This document shows, in pieces, positions 692-6,562 of a stretch of DNA of 21,335 nucleotides; positions within the stretch are counted from its first letter, which is position 1; every line of letters begins with the position of its first letter. The translations under genes and the position numbers were made by a program. The notes under the pieces were generated by a model. That model saw only the letters and a program-made list of their open reading frames with translations, was not told where the DNA came from and searched no databases. The stretch comes from a virus, in IMG/VR virus record IMGVR_UViG_3300027985_001688, positions 1 through 21,335 of that record; one strand, given 5' to 3'.

Positions 692-1600
692 ATGACAAAT
701 CCATTCATAGGGCGCGGCCTGACGGTGAATGACAAGCCGAGGGAAGTCGAGTTTATTCTTGACGGGTTTCTGGGCAAAGAGGTCATTACGCTGTATTATG
801 CCCCGCCTAAAAGCGGGAAAAGCATTTTGGCATTCGCGCTGTCGCGGTACGCGCATGACATAGCGGGGATGCGCGTGCTCTATTTCGACTTCGACAACTC
901 GCTGGTCGCCCTGGAAAACCGTAAGGTCTTCGGTAACCTCCCGGCGATGAAACAGTACGACTACATTCACATGGACAAGATCGCAATGACACGCGACAAG
1001 GTGCTGCAGGAGCTTATGCAGTTCGCAAAACAGCCCGGAAAACCGTTGGAGAACTACTTCCTCGTCTTCGACTCGCTGACGGACTTTACGGACACGAACG
1101 AGCACAACGCGAAAATCTTCATGGGTAAGATGAAAGCACTGCGTGCCGCCGGGGCGACGATATTGATTCTTCACCACATGAATAAGAGCGAACGGAGCTA
1201 CCAGGGCGCGCAGGATTTCGTATCTGCCGCCGACAACAGCTTCTCGCTAGAGATGCCAGTCAGCGGCGAGACGAACCCGTTTAGCGTGTTCACGATGGAG
1301 AAGTACCTCTCAAGGCTAAAGGGCATCAAGAATACGGCGTATTCGGTCGCAAACGGGGTATTCACTCTGGAATCGATACCGTACAGCGAAGCCATCATCC
1401 CGCAAAGCGAGCAGGCGTTTATCGACGAGACGATTAAGATCATCAAGAAACAGCCCGGCATCAAGCAGGGAGAACTACTCAAGCAAGTCGGCAAGGATGC
1501 CGGAAACAAGAACGGGAAGATCCTGCTAGACAAATACAAAGGCCGATGCTGGGTCACGGAAAGCGGATCAAAGAACGCCATCCTCTACTATTTGCCGTAG
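692..1600 (+). CDS. RecA-fold ATPase, RepA/AAA_25-like replicative helicase
   Basis: This 302-residue protein has a RecA-type ATPase core. Walker A is APPKSGKS at residues 37-44, beta-strand RVLYFDFD follows near 61-68, and Walker B is LVFDSLTD near 124-131. A third strand, ATILILHHMNKS, ends in paired histidines at about 161-162, and QGAQDFVSAADNSFSL follows. This order is typical of AAA_25 proteins and RSF1010 RepA-type hexameric helicases. Residues 240-302 look like a winged helix (IIKKQPGIKQGELLKQVG), probably for DNA binding. Start 692 follows GGAAG at 684-688. The gene lies directly upstream of a repeat-rich spacer and a DciA-like gene, which supports a role in phage replication. A MuB-like transposition ATPase is less likely because the MuB-type N-terminal HTH is absent. 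Family-level call strong; helicase activity inferred. Confidence 0.75.
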   Translation: MTNPFIGRGLTVNDKPREVEFILDGFLGKEVITLYYAPPKSGKSILAFALSRYAHDIAGMRVLYFDFDNSLVALENRKVFGNLPAMKQYDYIHMDKIAMTRDKVLQELMQFAKQPGKPLENYFLVFDSLTDFTDTNEHNAKIFMGKMKALRAAGATILILHHMNKSERSYQGAQDFVSAADNSFSLEMPVSGETNPFSVFTMEKYLSRLKGIKNTAYSVANGVFTLESIPYSEAIIPQSEQAFIDETIKIIKKQPGIKQGELLKQVGKDAGNKNGKILLDKYKGRCWVTESGSKNAILYYLP

Positions 1601-1820
1601 CGACAAGACTTCTACAAAACTAACCACCCTCTAAAAACGCCTATATTGCGTACTTTCAGACCATTTTATAATTCTGTCTTGTCGTCTTGTCAGTCTTGTA
1701 TGCATCATTATGAAAAGCGATTTTCACCCGGACATGAGACGCCATTTTTTTGGCGGTGACAAAACAGACAAAACGACAATACAGGGGTTTTAAATGCGCT
1801 TCAAATGCCGTAAATACCGT
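1601..1820. repeat. Iteron-like repeat cluster, candidate phage replication origin
   Basis: The 282 bp between the helicase and DciA-like genes have no convincing ORF but contain ordered repeats. GTCTTGTC occurs at 1676-1683 and 1684-1691, with GTCTTGTA at 1693-1700. A mirrored set follows on the other strand: GACAAAAC at 1758-1765 and 1767-1774, and GACAATAC at 1775-1782. The 25-bp arms match at 20 positions and keep the same 8/9-bp spacing in mirror order. GACAAGAC at 1602-1609 is another copy. Between the arms, CGCCA-TTTTTT-TGGCG (1740-1755) is a hairpin. A second family follows: AAATGCGCT (1792), AAATGCCGT (1803) and AAATACCGT (1812). AT-rich DNA at about 1640-1675 could unwind. An operator cluster is the main alternative. 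Confidence 0.5.
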
Positions 1821-1882
1821 GCTTTTAGGCTGCGTTCCAGTTTTGTGAAAGCGTTGTAAAACTAAAAAAAGGAGCAAAACGA

Positions 1883-2350
1883 ATGAGCAAATGGCAGGAC
1901 CGGTCAGGACAGGAGCAGATCGACCTCTTCAACCATCCCAAGATGAAACAGCACGACGCCATCGACAAACTGGCCGATGCGCTGCCTGATGCGCTGCTCA
2001 AGGGGTTCCGCTACGGGGAGCTGCGCGGGCAGATCCTCGTGCTGCACTTCACCCACCCAGGCCACCTCAACGAGTTCAAGATCCGCAAGGATGAGATCCT
2101 GGAGAAGATGCGCTCGATCTACAAGGAGCACGGGCTCCGGGAGAGCATCGTCTTCAAGGACGTCAAGGCAGAGCAGCGGTACCAGCCGCCGCCGAAGCAG
2201 GTAGCCGAGCAGAGCCTGGAGTTCGAAGACCGGGCGAAGGGAGACTTCGAGAACACGCAGACGAATCCGGTCCTGAATCGGATCTTCGAGAACATCAGAA
2301 AAACGATCAAGGAGCGACACGATGGAAGAGCCGGAAATGCTGACTCATGA
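1883..2350 (+). CDS. DciA-like (DUF721) protein, possible helicase loader
   Basis: This 155-residue protein resembles DciA/DUF721, the ancestral bacterial DnaB-helicase loader. Residues about 25-97 carry the recognisable pattern: a helix ending LLKGFRYGEL, the strand ILVLHFTHPG, then NEFKIRKDEILEKMRSIYKE and a final strand SIVFKDVKA. This matches the DUF721 strand/helix order and its LxFxxxHPGxxxEF-like signature as I remember it. A proline- and acid-rich linker leads to a C-terminal helix (NPVLNRIFENIRKTI) that could dock on a partner. AAAAAAAGGAG ends at 1874, eight bases before the ATG. Its neighbours are a RepA-like helicase and a candidate origin, which fits a loader. The match is from memory of the pattern, without alignment; a different single-strand DNA or RNA-binding protein is possible. 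Confidence 0.5.
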   Translation: MSKWQDRSGQEQIDLFNHPKMKQHDAIDKLADALPDALLKGFRYGELRGQILVLHFTHPGHLNEFKIRKDEILEKMRSIYKEHGLRESIVFKDVKAEQRYQPPPKQVAEQSLEFEDRAKGDFENTQTNPVLNRIFENIRKTIKERHDGRAGNADS

Positions 2351-2507
2351 AGAAATATGGGAATTCATTCGCATCCTCCAGAAACATATGGCGAAGTTCG
2401 ATGGAAGAAAGATCACAGAGATACCGGAGAAAGAAGCACTGGATGCCTACGATGAAGCGTGGGAAGAATTCGAAAAGGAGCGACACAATGACACAGGCAC
2501 AGACTGA
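2322..2507 (+). CDS. Small acidic early protein, unknown function
   Basis: This 61-residue protein is very acidic and helical (THEEIWEFIRILQKHMAKFD, then EALDAYDEAWEEFEKER). I do not recognise it. It starts inside the end of the DciA-like gene (29-bp overlap) and its own end overlaps the GemA start by 20 bp, so the three are probably translationally coupled. Its start is preceded by AAGGAGCGACAC (2309-2320), the same 12 bases found before the next gene (2475-2486). This supports a real gene despite its size. Confidence 0.6.
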   Translation: MEEPEMLTHEEIWEFIRILQKHMAKFDGRKITEIPEKEALDAYDEAWEEFEKERHNDTGTD

Positions 2508-2886
2508 TTTCCGAAAGCTGCTGCTCAAGCAGATCCACACCAGCCCCCGCTGGCGCAACCACTTCGGCGAGAACAGGGAGGCGTACGAGGAGCTGCTGCA
2601 GGATCACTTCGGGCACCGCAGTAGCGCGAAGCTCTCCATCACCCAGCTGCAGCAGCTGAACAGCTATATGCAGATGGAGCGCAGCCTGCCGCGCCGCAAG
2701 CTCGCCAGCCCGCAGCAGCTCTTCAAAATGAGCGAGATCTGGGCGGAGAAGGCGCGCACGCCGACCGACGCCGCGCTGCTGGTCTTCGCCGCGCGGATCT
2801 GCGGCCGGACGCCCGACAGCCTGCCTGACCTCTCCCCGGCCGAAGCGCAGAAGGTGATCATCGCGCTGAGCAAGATGGGAGGGTGA
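2488..2886 (+). CDS. gemA: Mu GemA/gp16-like protein (DUF1018)
   Basis: This 132-residue protein matches the DUF1018 pattern of Mu GemA (gp16). The N-terminal part has RKLLLKQIHTSPRW followed by NREAYEELLQDHFGHRSSAKLSITQLQQL, the 'Y..LL...G..S...L....L' block. The C-terminal half has PQQLFKMSEIWAEKA, then DAALLVFAARICGRTPDSLPDLSPAEAQKVIIALSKM, the block that ends GemA proteins. In Mu, GemA influences host gene expression and DNA supercoiling; its mechanism is poorly understood. ATG 2488 follows AAAAGGAG at 2473-2480; an open frame extends upstream to 2347 but lacks a ribosome site there. The gene closes the early operon and lies before the zinc-ribbon gene, a position like that of Mu gemA before the middle/late regulator mor. 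Confidence 0.75.
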   Translation: MTQAQTDFRKLLLKQIHTSPRWRNHFGENREAYEELLQDHFGHRSSAKLSITQLQQLNSYMQMERSLPRRKLASPQQLFKMSEIWAEKARTPTDAALLVFAARICGRTPDSLPDLSPAEAQKVIIALSKMGG

Positions 2887-2887
2887 G

Positions 2888-3100
2888 ATGATATGCCCCT
2901 ATTGCGTCAATGACAAAACGCAGGTGGTAGGTACGGTAAAGGCCGGAACGGTCGTCGAGCGCTTCAGGCGGTGCCCGAGGTGCAACAAGACATTCCAGAC
3001 GACGGAAGCAATCAAATTTGACAGTTATTGGGGGGAGTATGCAAGAGCAACTGGTGAGCAGCTTGTTGAAGAGCAAGAAAAACACGACAAAGGACATTGA
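2888..3100 (+). CDS. Zinc-ribbon protein, NrdR-like / Ogr-Delta-like putative late regulator
   Basis: This 70-residue protein has a clear zinc ribbon: C3-x2-C6 (MICPYC) and C29-x2-C32 (RRCPRC), followed by NKTFQTTEAI. The second half closely resembles the N-terminal ribbon of NrdR (CxxCxxRFTTFE), but the NrdR ATP-cone is missing. The same architecture occurs in the small Ogr/Delta proteins that activate P2-type late promoters. It lies between the last early gene (GemA) and the head genes, and the phage has P2-like head genes, so a role as late transcription activator is attractive. The start lies one base after the GemA stop, with GGGAGGG upstream. The 3' end overlaps the MuF gene by 62 bp. 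A truncated NrdR captured from a host is the alternative. Confidence 0.6.
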   Translation: MICPYCVNDKTQVVGTVKAGTVVERFRRCPRCNKTFQTTEAIKFDSYWGEYARATGEQLVEEQEKHDKGH

Positions 3101-4549: not shown

Positions 4550-4995
4550 TCGACGTACAGGACACCCTTGAGGAGTTGCTGCTGCGCATCGCCTTCGAGA
4601 TCGAGGCCGAGGCAAAGGAGATCGCGCCGAAGCGCGAAGGTGACCTGGCCAGAGACATCCAGGTCTTCATGGACAACCTCGCCGCGCTCGATGTCTCCAT
4701 CGGGAACTCGACCCTGATCGAGTACGCCCCGTTCGTTCACAGCGGGACAGGGCTCTACGGCCCAAATAAGAAGCGCATCACCCCCAGAGAGAAGCAGGCG
4801 TTGCGCACACCGTACGGACCGCGCAAGAGCATCGCCGGCCAGAAGCCGCAGCCTTACCTAAACGACGCGGCATCAAACATCCTCTCCTCCGGGAAGCTCG
4901 ACATCATATTCGACGAGTTCTCCGGCCGCCTCGGCGACGATGTCTTCGACGCCATCCGCTCCCAGCTCAAAAGCCTGCATGTCGACGTTACATGA
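4546..4995 (+). CDS. HK97 gp10-like tail-completion/connector protein
   Basis: This 149-residue protein fits the HK97 gp10-like family, which completes the top of the tail at the head-tail joint. It has a helical start (LEELLLRIAFEIEAEAKEIAPKREG), then the typical LARDIQVF / VSIGNSTLIEYAPFVHSGTG block, in which the protein reads as 'Y A P F V H x G T G'. After a basic segment comes GQKPQPYLNDA, the usual 'P x P F L' motif near the C-terminus. It is coupled to the preceding gene by ATGA. Its stop at 4993-4995 lies inside the end of the convergent terminase gene, giving an 8-bp tail-to-tail overlap. In most phages gp10-like genes sit beside the connector genes; here the operon is broken by the inverted packaging genes. 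Confidence 0.7.
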   Translation: MIDVQDTLEELLLRIAFEIEAEAKEIAPKREGDLARDIQVFMDNLAALDVSIGNSTLIEYAPFVHSGTGLYGPNKKRITPREKQALRTPYGPRKSIAGQKPQPYLNDAASNILSSGKLDIIFDEFSGRLGDDVFDAIRSQLKSLHVDVT

Positions 4996-6562
4996 TCCAG
5001 GCCCCTCCTCCCTTCTTCCTCACTACTACCTCCACGAACGACAGTGCCAGCGCCAGCGCCCAGAAGCGGTCGGCGTGACCGTGCTCGTTCCGCTTTGAAT
5101 CATATTTGAAACTCTTTGCCCCCACCAGCCTTTTGATGGCGTGAAGGTCCGCGATGAGCAGCGGATCGTTCGGGATCCTGATGGTCTTGTCCTCGAAGTG
5201 CTTTTTGAGGTTCAGCGCCATGGCCTCCTTTGAGCTGTTCGTGAACCATACCCCGCGCACCCGGCTTTTGAAGGCGTCGTACATGTTCTCGGCCAGGTTG
5301 TTCCCGAGGCCAGTCTTGTCGATGGCGAGCTGCGCCAGCGGGTAGGTACGCATGAACTGTTTCAGGTGCGCTTTCTGGTCGTCGTACTTCGCCTTGGCCA
5401 GTACATCCATCATGGCCGCCTCGTAGATCTGGCCGGCCAGCACGACGCCGGCCAGCGTGGAGCGGTCTTTCGTCCGCCCGACGTCGTAACCGGAAAAGAG
5501 CGTATTTTGCGATTTCGGCGTGTAGTACGAGAGCCCAGGATCGACACAGCTCTTGATGAGCTCGATGGAGAGCAGGCTGCTCTCGTCGTCGACGAACTGG
5601 CACTCGTACGCCGATGCCCAGGTATCCGCATCGAAGAGCGCCCGCATCGTCTCGAGGTCGAAGTCGAGCCCGTCTTTGATGGCGCGGTAGATGTCGATCC
5701 GGAAGCGCGTGAACATGAAGTAGCGCTCCTCGTCAACGATAAGATCGTGGAAGAGGCTGCGCTCCTCGAACGGGGTGGACATGATCGTCAGGCGGCCTTT
5801 GATGGCCCCGATCGACGGGACGAAGGCGTGCCAGATCTTTTTTGGGTTTGCGTACCAGGCGAATTCGTCCATCCAGATATCGCCGGTGAAACCCTGGACG
5901 GTACGGAAGTTGTGCGCCAGCGCCTTGATGATGGCACCGTTGGCGAGGTGCAGCTCCTTCTCGGTATCTTTGACGAACTCGATGCCGTACCGCTTCGCCC
6001 ACTGTTTCGCGTAACGGATGAGGATGAGCGCCTGCTCCTCCGACGCCGATAGGAAGAGCTGATCACGCCCGGCGACCGCACCGATAAGCGCATCGGCAGC
6101 GGCGGAGTATGAGAACCCGATCTGGCGGGCTTTCACGACAAGGCGGAACTGGTCCTCGCACTCAATGAACTCGCGCTGGTAGCCATAGAGCCCACCGGTC
6201 TCCAGGATGCGGCGCTTCAGGTCGAGCGCCTCTTTTGAACCTGAAATGTCGATGACGGGCTTCTGCCGCTTGGCAGCCCTGTCCGTCTTCGCCTGAACAC
6301 GCTCGAGCGTCGCTAGCGACTTCGACAGCATCGCGATCTTCCGGCTGACCGCCTCCGTAGGTTCACGCCGGGAGAGCTTTTCGATCTGCTTGCGGATGTT
6401 CTTGATGGACTTCTTGACGTCCTTCTCTTCCTTCTCCCTCTCATTGCGCCAGTTGCGCAGGGTGCCGCGGTTGCACCCGATCTCGTCGGCAACCTCCTGC
6501 ACCGGGATCCCCGCATCCATCAGCTGCAGCGCTTCTTGTTTCTGCTCCTCACTATACGCCAT
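4988..6562 (-). CDS. Terminase large subunit, P2 gpP/Mu gp28-like
   Basis: This 524-residue protein is the DNA-packaging motor. An N-terminal helix-turn-helix (residues 1-45, VQEVADEIGCNRGTLRNWRN) and a charged coiled coil (45-100) precede the ATPase. The P-loop variant is KARQIGFSYS at 144-153; Walker B is DIWMDEFAW at 228-236; a coupling motif MSTP lies at 261-264. The C-terminal RNase H-like nuclease has the expected acids in SGYDVGRTKDRSTLAG (D360), AIDKTGLGNN (D415) and HGHADRFWALAL (D498). The fused HTH is typical of P2 gpP and may take over DNA recognition, since no separate small terminase is visible. Start 6562 follows GGGGAG nine bases upstream. It is transcribed after the portal gene on the minus strand and collides with the gp10-like gene. 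Confidence 0.9.
   Translation of the reverse strand: MAYSEEQKQEALQLMDAGIPVQEVADEIGCNRGTLRNWRNEREKEEKDVKKSIKNIRKQIEKLSRREPTEAVSRKIAMLSKSLATLERVQAKTDRAAKRQKPVIDISGSKEALDLKRRILETGGLYGYQREFIECEDQFRLVVKARQIGFSYSAAADALIGAVAGRDQLFLSASEEQALILIRYAKQWAKRYGIEFVKDTEKELHLANGAIIKALAHNFRTVQGFTGDIWMDEFAWYANPKKIWHAFVPSIGAIKGRLTIMSTPFEERSLFHDLIVDEERYFMFTRFRIDIYRAIKDGLDFDLETMRALFDADTWASAYECQFVDDESSLLSIELIKSCVDPGLSYYTPKSQNTLFSGYDVGRTKDRSTLAGVVLAGQIYEAAMMDVLAKAKYDDQKAHLKQFMRTYPLAQLAIDKTGLGNNLAENMYDAFKSRVRGVWFTNSSKEAMALNLKKHFEDKTIRIPNDPLLIADLHAIKRLVGAKSFKYDSKRNEHGHADRFWALALALSFVEVVVRKKGGGAWIM

Follow-up and report, generated by a model that had tools for sequence, protein, structure and literature searches.

A non-coding gap at positions 1601-1882 of IMG/VR record IMGVR_UViG_3300027985_001688 (positions 1 to 21,335; this whole 21,335-nucleotide stretch is referred to as the window) carries short repeats in mirror order, and raises the question of which protein reads these repeats and with what consequence for the phage. 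The record is a virus contig with genes for GemA, a Mu-F-like head protein, terminase, portal, protease, capsid and tape-measure protein, and a tRNA-Leu after the phage genes is followed by a host ftsK-like gene with its closest match in a Campylobacterales MAG (70%). In relatives whose early region is intact, genes for a MuA-type transposase (rve + Mu-transpos_C) and a MuB-like ATPase are present. Because of this gene content, the ftsK-like match and the MuA and MuB of the relatives, the window is a Mu-like prophage and its lineage is that of the Mu-like transposable phages of Campylobacterota. Two further genes of the window can be described here. A 70-aa zinc-ribbon protein with an NrdR-like N-terminal domain is encoded at 2888-3100, after gemA, and its cysteine pattern presumably recalls Ogr/Delta-type late activators. 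The large terminase (4988-6562, minus strand) has a transposase/resolvase-type helix-turn-helix fused at its N-terminus.

The gene upstream of the gap, hel (692-1600, plus strand), had been labelled a RepA-like helicase and the downstream gene DciA-like, labels that proved approximate. The hel product is a RecA-fold AAA_25 ATPase (Pfam AAA_25, 1.7e-8), for which the helicase label is only putative; its top PHROG match, PHROG 6357 (4e-48), is of unknown function. The AlphaFold model (pLDDT 88; second model 84) comprises a RecA-fold core and a C-terminal winged helix. Foldseek searches with the full model retrieved RecA, RadA and KaiC from the PDB, and phage primase-helicases and AAA proteins from BFVD. 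The winged-helix codons span 1403-1600 (plus strand; residues 238-302), with the order helix-helix-helix-strand-strand according to DSSP of the models, and a Foldseek search with this domain alone retrieved weak hits, for the most part winged-helix regulators (E no better than 0.018). The downstream gene, dci (1883-2350, plus strand), is DciA-like at best: its product matches Pfam DciA (PF05258) at 0.0012 and misses the gathering score (19.4 bits vs 24). It is followed by gemA (2488-2886, plus strand), a member of the Mu GemA family (Pfam GemA, 8.2e-11), which in the relatives is usually the next gene after hel and the repeats.

All the repeat elements listed in the initial annotation are present in the gap, with an abundance above chance. 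The G/T-rich repeats GTCTTGTC (1676-1683), GTCTTGTC (1684-1691) and GTCTTGTA (1693-1700), at spacings of 8 and 9, are mirrored by GACAAAAC (1758-1765), GACAAAAC (1767-1774) and GACAATAC (1775-1782), at spacings of 9 and 8. The two 25-nt arms match as an inverted repeat at 20 of 25 positions, as had been claimed, and the best 25-mer inverted pair of the gap (best in register) reaches 21/25, a value found in none of 500 dinucleotide shuffles. A small hairpin, CGCCA-TTTTTT-TGGCG (1740-1755; 5-bp arms, 6-nt loop), lies between the inner arms, and a further inverted copy, CGACAAGAC, is found at 1601-1609. The motif GTNTTGTC occurs 14 times in the window, with 2.4 copies expected, and six of these copies fall within 1602-1782.

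These elements form part of a long imperfect inverted repeat (1603-1857, centre at about 1729.5) that fills the non-coding gap. Its self-complement score is 158, compared with 67 +/- 11 (maximum 124.5) in shuffled sequences, none of which reached it in 1000 trials, and the outer arms alone score 44.5, as against 24.7 +/- 4.4 (again 0/1000 as high). Among 702 windows of the record, the gap palindrome ranks at the top. The gap also displays several features of iteron origins. Its tandem short repeats exceed chance (three tandem 7-mers with 14/14 identity; 0/500 dinucleotide shuffles of the gap reach this value, the maximum being 12), it is A+T-rich (GC 0.397 vs 0.537, with 6 of 1053 windows as low), and the neighbouring hel contains a candidate repeat-reading domain in the form of the predicted winged helix.

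The whole gap appears to be best read as two mirrored-repeat cassettes, arranged back to back in opposite orientation. Cassette 1 (1601-1700, plus strand) consists of a degenerate A/C-rich arm at about 1602-1629 (beginning GACAAGAC), a core (1630-1675) containing AACGCCTATATTGCGT and CATTTTATAATTCT, and a G/T-rich arm (1676-1700) with three copies of GTCTTGTC at 8/9-bp spacing; a -10-like TATAAT (1667-1672, plus strand) lies inside this core. Cassette 2 (1758-1857, minus strand) is an inverted copy, with an A/C-rich arm (1758-1782) composed of GACAAAAC, GACAAAAC and GACAATAC, a core (1783-1838) containing AAATGCCGTAAATACCGTGC, and a G/T-rich arm at about 1839-1857. The mirror arms seen initially are thus real, but they are inner arms, one from each of two cassettes, that face each other. 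Likewise, AAATGC (1792-1797), AAATGCCGT (1803-1811) and AAATACCGT (1812-1820), which had been taken for a second repeat family, are present and belong to core 2 rather than to a separate family. The position and layout of cassette 1 are those seen in the relatives, the early-region cassette of L121 has a core identical to the AAATGCCGTAAA of cassette 2, and L138 likewise has two cassettes in opposite orientation. As the outer arm of cassette 1 is degenerate and this cassette is weak on its own (z 0.7 within the first 150 nt), the gap could alternatively be read as a single inside-out cassette.

The recurrence of this element was analysed in relatives of hel. Neither hel nor dci, when searched as single proteins against viral and genome contigs, gave a match, and the relatives were recovered through profile-based and whole-genome searches, which located hel homologues in 75 of 397 Campylobacterota genomes as well as in IMG/VR contigs. 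By blastn, the gap gave only short low-complexity matches in the 397 genomes (the window's own host not being among them), and the exact arm pattern was found in viral contigs in one unrelated phage, L091. What the relatives share is an architecture with unrelated letters: a palindromic core preceded by roughly three 9-bp units in tandem and followed by roughly three mirrored ones. A strong inverted repeat (z >= 2.8) is present within 150 nt of the hel stop codon in 38 of 63 loci, representing 32 distinct phages, and almost every one of the 38 has its highest autocorrelation at a lag of 9 bp; most of the remaining loci score about 0 for an inverted repeat behind hel. The cassette of L111 illustrates the layout, with TGCAACCGT, TACAACCAC and TACAACTAC on one side of the core CACAAATAAAGGCTTATAATAT, and GTGGTTGTA, TAGGTTGTA and AGGGTTGCA on the other. 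Other phages use other units, such as TAATACCGC (L115), TACCACAC (L104-L107), GAAACACTG (L102) and TTATACATC (L136). The cores are A/T-rich and often palindromic (AAAGCC...GGCTTT). The closest hel relatives of the window, L102-L107 (about 40%), have a single cassette behind hel, and L104-L107 mix 8- and 9-bp spacing as the window does. The mirror order, initially regarded as unusual, is therefore the norm of the lineage.

In a second group of phages hel abuts gemA, with dci usually just upstream of hel. The idea that these phages have no cassette proved to be wrong, as most of those with sufficient sequence have the cassette at another location; L120, L125, L129, L135, L137 and L143 are short contigs, too short to locate it. 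It lies in the leader that separates the repressor from the first early gene, or comparably far upstream, in L121, L126, L139, L055, L052, G539 and G446, about 0.6 kb behind hel in L134 and G510, and in the late region of L124 (at +3.1 and +5.3 kb). Loss of the repeats with retention of the flanking genes, which had been named as an argument against an origin, is thus seen just locally, where hel abuts gemA. The place of dci also varies: it is directly upstream of hel in L121-L127, downstream in L141 and in the window, far upstream in L047/L102/L103/L140, and undetected in the majority of phages whose cassette lies behind hel. Mutual exclusion of cassette and dci was considered and discarded, being a tendency only, since both adjoin in the window and L102/L103/L140 have dci far upstream.

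Some relatives carry cassettes at two or three intergenic sites, and two adjacent cassettes with different units are present in L047/L140 and in L136. The order of the arms relative to transcription varies among phages. L142 has a cassette behind hel as well as four upstream unit copies; the latter are in tandem directly upstream of the hel start (TACAACACA, minus strand; L151, 1450-1540). In L057 and L059, an extra cassette is located about 5.3 kb behind hel, in the divergent portal/protease gap. One arm lies within the hel reading frame, directly after the winged helix, in L046, L050, L141, G441 (L222) and G236 (L224), where the in-frame arms give hel tails such as TTDTTVTT or VTNVTN.

The sequence of the units follows the winged helix. 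In partial rank correlations over 29 phages, cassette similarity gave values of 0.44 for the winged helix, 0.35 for gem and 0.02 for the ATPase core, and in the 16 phages with MuA the partial correlation was 0.76 for the winged helix vs 0.15 for MuA. Two natural domain swaps show it directly. L119 and L130 share about 100% DNA identity through the ATPase core, which drops to 65-73% over most of the winged helix and the cassette and then recovers. Conversely, L119 and L111 are 50-82% identical in the core and 88-97% in the winged helix and most of the cassette. These two identity profiles show that the winged helix and the cassette are swapped between phages as one module of about 270 bp. Linkage could explain part of the covariation where the cassette adjoins hel, as the partial value of 0.35 for gem indicates. 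Six phages have two well-separated sites (0.9-11.3 kb apart), and in each of them the unit is common to both sites. The summed own-phage similarity is 332, compared with a permutation mean of 150, and the identity permutation alone reaches it (1/720), in permutations that ignore phylogeny. This comparison does not depend on the cassette adjoining hel; the differing units of the adjacent cassettes in L047/L140 and in L136 speak against it.

Covariation of the repeats among related prophages had been put forward as a check, and it is borne out: the architecture is kept and the unit varies with the winged helix of the adjacent hel. The proposal that the repeats are sites of a sequence-specific protein is supported, at the level of sequence comparison, by both of these observations. 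The element is real and recurrent, and its covariation with the winged helix makes a function very probable.

The explanation favoured here is that the cassette is the recognition site of the hel winged helix, most likely for assembly or loading of the ATPase in replication; we regard the chances of this explanation as evenly balanced, with binding and the replication role both inferred. A cassette would consist of an A/T-rich palindromic core with about three tandem 8-9-bp units per side in mirror order, and the C-terminal winged helix of hel would recognise the cassette of its own phage, one unit corresponding to one winged-helix contact. The dyad would gather several ATPase subunits, and the RecA-fold ATPase would be assembled or loaded on phage DNA for replication, giving the cassette an origin- or loading-site role; autoregulation may be an additional role. 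A more specific form of this proposal is put forward tentatively and is, taken as a whole, somewhat less likely than not. In it, each phage would have a mirrored cassette of its own, with about 3+3 units of 8-9 bp, read by a swappable winged helix; the two would be exchanged together as a site-specific replication or loading module, giving every phage a separate specificity, and the six units would perhaps match a ring of subunits. A cumulative GC-skew inflection at the gap, suggested earlier as a sign of an origin and looked for as the strand-composition switch of iteron origins, is absent at 1.6-1.9 kb of this record, which is a fragment. The adjacent cassettes with different units in L047/L140 and L136, and the arms located within the hel reading frame of several relatives, also weigh against the favoured explanation. 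Moreover, an internal origin is in principle unneeded for these phages, because cassette-bearing relatives encode MuA and MuB and transposition would in principle suffice.

The strongest rival, which we consider rather unlikely, is that the cassettes are operators: a regulator, either the hel winged helix or another protein, would bind the mirrored repeats around a -10 element in the core to control the downstream genes, and separated copies would form a regulon. The presence of several cassettes per phage at different intergenic sites fits operators equally well. Operators are also consistent with the TATAAT of core 1 and of the cores of L048, L111, L119, L113 and L122, with the location of the extra cassettes (early leader; divergent portal/protease gap), with the unit common to well-separated copies, and with the resemblance of the winged helices to those of repressors in weak Foldseek matches. 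However, a promoter scan called no sigma-70 promoter pair in the gap, a -10-like element is missing from the cores of many relatives, and an arm inside the hel reading frame, as found in some phages, also counts against operators. Furthermore, L139 has a separate repeat cluster with TTGACA about 300 bp from its early cassette, so that the repressor operators of this phage look separate from the cassette.

An RNA structure in the early transcript, acting in processing, antitermination or translation control before gemA/dci, is improbable. The gap folds into one giant hairpin at -65.8 kcal/mol and the cassettes of the relatives fold at about -21 to -41 kcal/mol, but the folding z of the gap is only -1.9, and the variable arm order relative to transcription also argues against an RNA element. 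The operon strand has no G-U bias (9 vs 21 in the arms and 36 vs 74 overall), its folds are on average 2.3 kcal/mol less stable than those of the complementary strand, and no Rfam family matched the element, whether taken from the window or from eight relatives; these results make a site in double-stranded DNA the more likely interpretation. A hairpin in single-stranded DNA, or an RNA from the minus strand, may be an alternative.

It is very improbable that the cassettes are sites of the MuA-like transposase, either as internal ends or as a transpositional enhancer. Tandem copies of AGCAATACAACC occur at the left ends of some relatives, with TACAAC in common with their cassettes, and some termini resemble the cassette unit. 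Nevertheless, L054 has ends of the AGCAAGTAAACC type and L112 of the AGCAATACAACC type, yet their cassettes are alike, while L048 and L112 show 0.82 similarity in MuA but 0.25 in the cassette, in line with the low overall partial correlation. Cassette units were therefore rejected as transposase end sites, because the end repeats change independently and the cassette does not follow MuA. A degenerate mobile element (MITE-like) or a functionless inverted duplication, which the two cassettes of the window resemble (arms about 76% complementary), is also very improbable given that no extended DNA match to the gap occurs in the 397 genomes, from which the window's host is missing, that 32 distinct phages have the architecture at this position in unrelated letters, and that the cassette travels with a protein domain.

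The ends of these phages present some features of their own. Candidate left ends begin near TGT in L112 (L148), L118 (L149), L110 (L150), L041 (L152), L054 (L166), L056 (L168) and L107 (L159). The tandem transposase-type repeats of the left ends differ by phage (AGCAATACAACC, AGCAAGTAAACC, AAGCGACAC and AAAGGAACAC), and L041, L056 and L112 have at least two end modules in tandem. Distinct phages share sequence upstream of the presumed left end in the pairs L102 (L154)/L047 (L169) and L104 (L156)/L107 (L159), which suggests that the two phages of a pair inserted at one site or that the phage end lies further out. The termini of L102 and L047 (TTTAAGTGTTGCYAAACTG) resemble part of the L102 cassette. 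The presence of one cassette unit at the termini of several phages is suggestive, although it is contradicted by L047, and the right ends are not reliably located.

Several known systems provide a frame for the preferred reading, a winged-helix recognition site for ATPase loading. Iteron origins composed of direct-repeat arrays, as in P4 alpha, lambda O and RepA plasmids, place short tandem units in an A/T-rich segment close to the gene for the protein that binds them. The cassette is similar to them in its short tandem units, its A/T-richness and its location near the gene of the presumed binding protein, but it differs in having mirror arms around a palindromic core and a unit that changes between close relatives. 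The operators and internal activating sequence of Mu are repeated protein sites in the Mu early region. The cassette also belongs to Mu-like phages and its repeated sites lie in the early region of some relatives, whereas in most phages analysed here it is found behind hel, with units that follow the winged helix rather than MuA.

Closer parallels are found in replication modules. In pRN1, replication assays established that replication depends on a stem-loop of about 100 bp located behind the replication gene, and stem-loops of this type, also reported for phage BIP-1, are conserved in structure and variable in sequence (PMC4234260). The cassette is likewise a stem-loop of about 100 bp directly behind an ATPase gene, with a layout kept without sequence conservation. 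The pRN1 orf904 product is a replication protein with helicase and winged-helix domains, of the prim-pol/SF3 helicase type; in contrast, hel encodes an AAA_25 RecA-fold ATPase without a prim-pol domain, its likeness to phage primase-helicases being at the level of the fold only. Tandem 9-bp units as in the cassette are not described for pRN1, and the pRN1 origin was assayed, whereas the present work is sequence analysis. In PLE satellites, the DNA-binding domain of RepA covaries with the iteron origin, and only cognate pairs replicate (PMC8263062). That system pairs a RepA_N protein with semi-palindromic iterons of about 30 bp, unlike the RecA-fold ATPase with a winged helix and mirrored 8-9-bp units considered here, and its covariation is functionally proven, while the functional meaning of the covariation is inferred for the cassette. 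The replication-loading role is favoured because the PLE RepA/iteron pairs and pRN1 show that such modules can be origins.

Protein-specific repeat sites are already known as a kind, of which the cassette would be a variant; searches of the literature on Mu-like phages of Campylobacterota, inverted iterons, RepA-like helicases and DciA gave no account of it. The findings link a widespread, unnamed family of phage ATPases to a recognisable DNA site, provide a signature usable for annotating such prophages, and offer dozens of natural specificity pairs, each a winged helix with its 9-bp unit, for studying how DNA is read. Should replication be started or loaded at this site, transposable phages would possess a second route for helicase recruitment, one resembling an origin, and origin-like recognition would exist inside phages thought to replicate by transposition alone.
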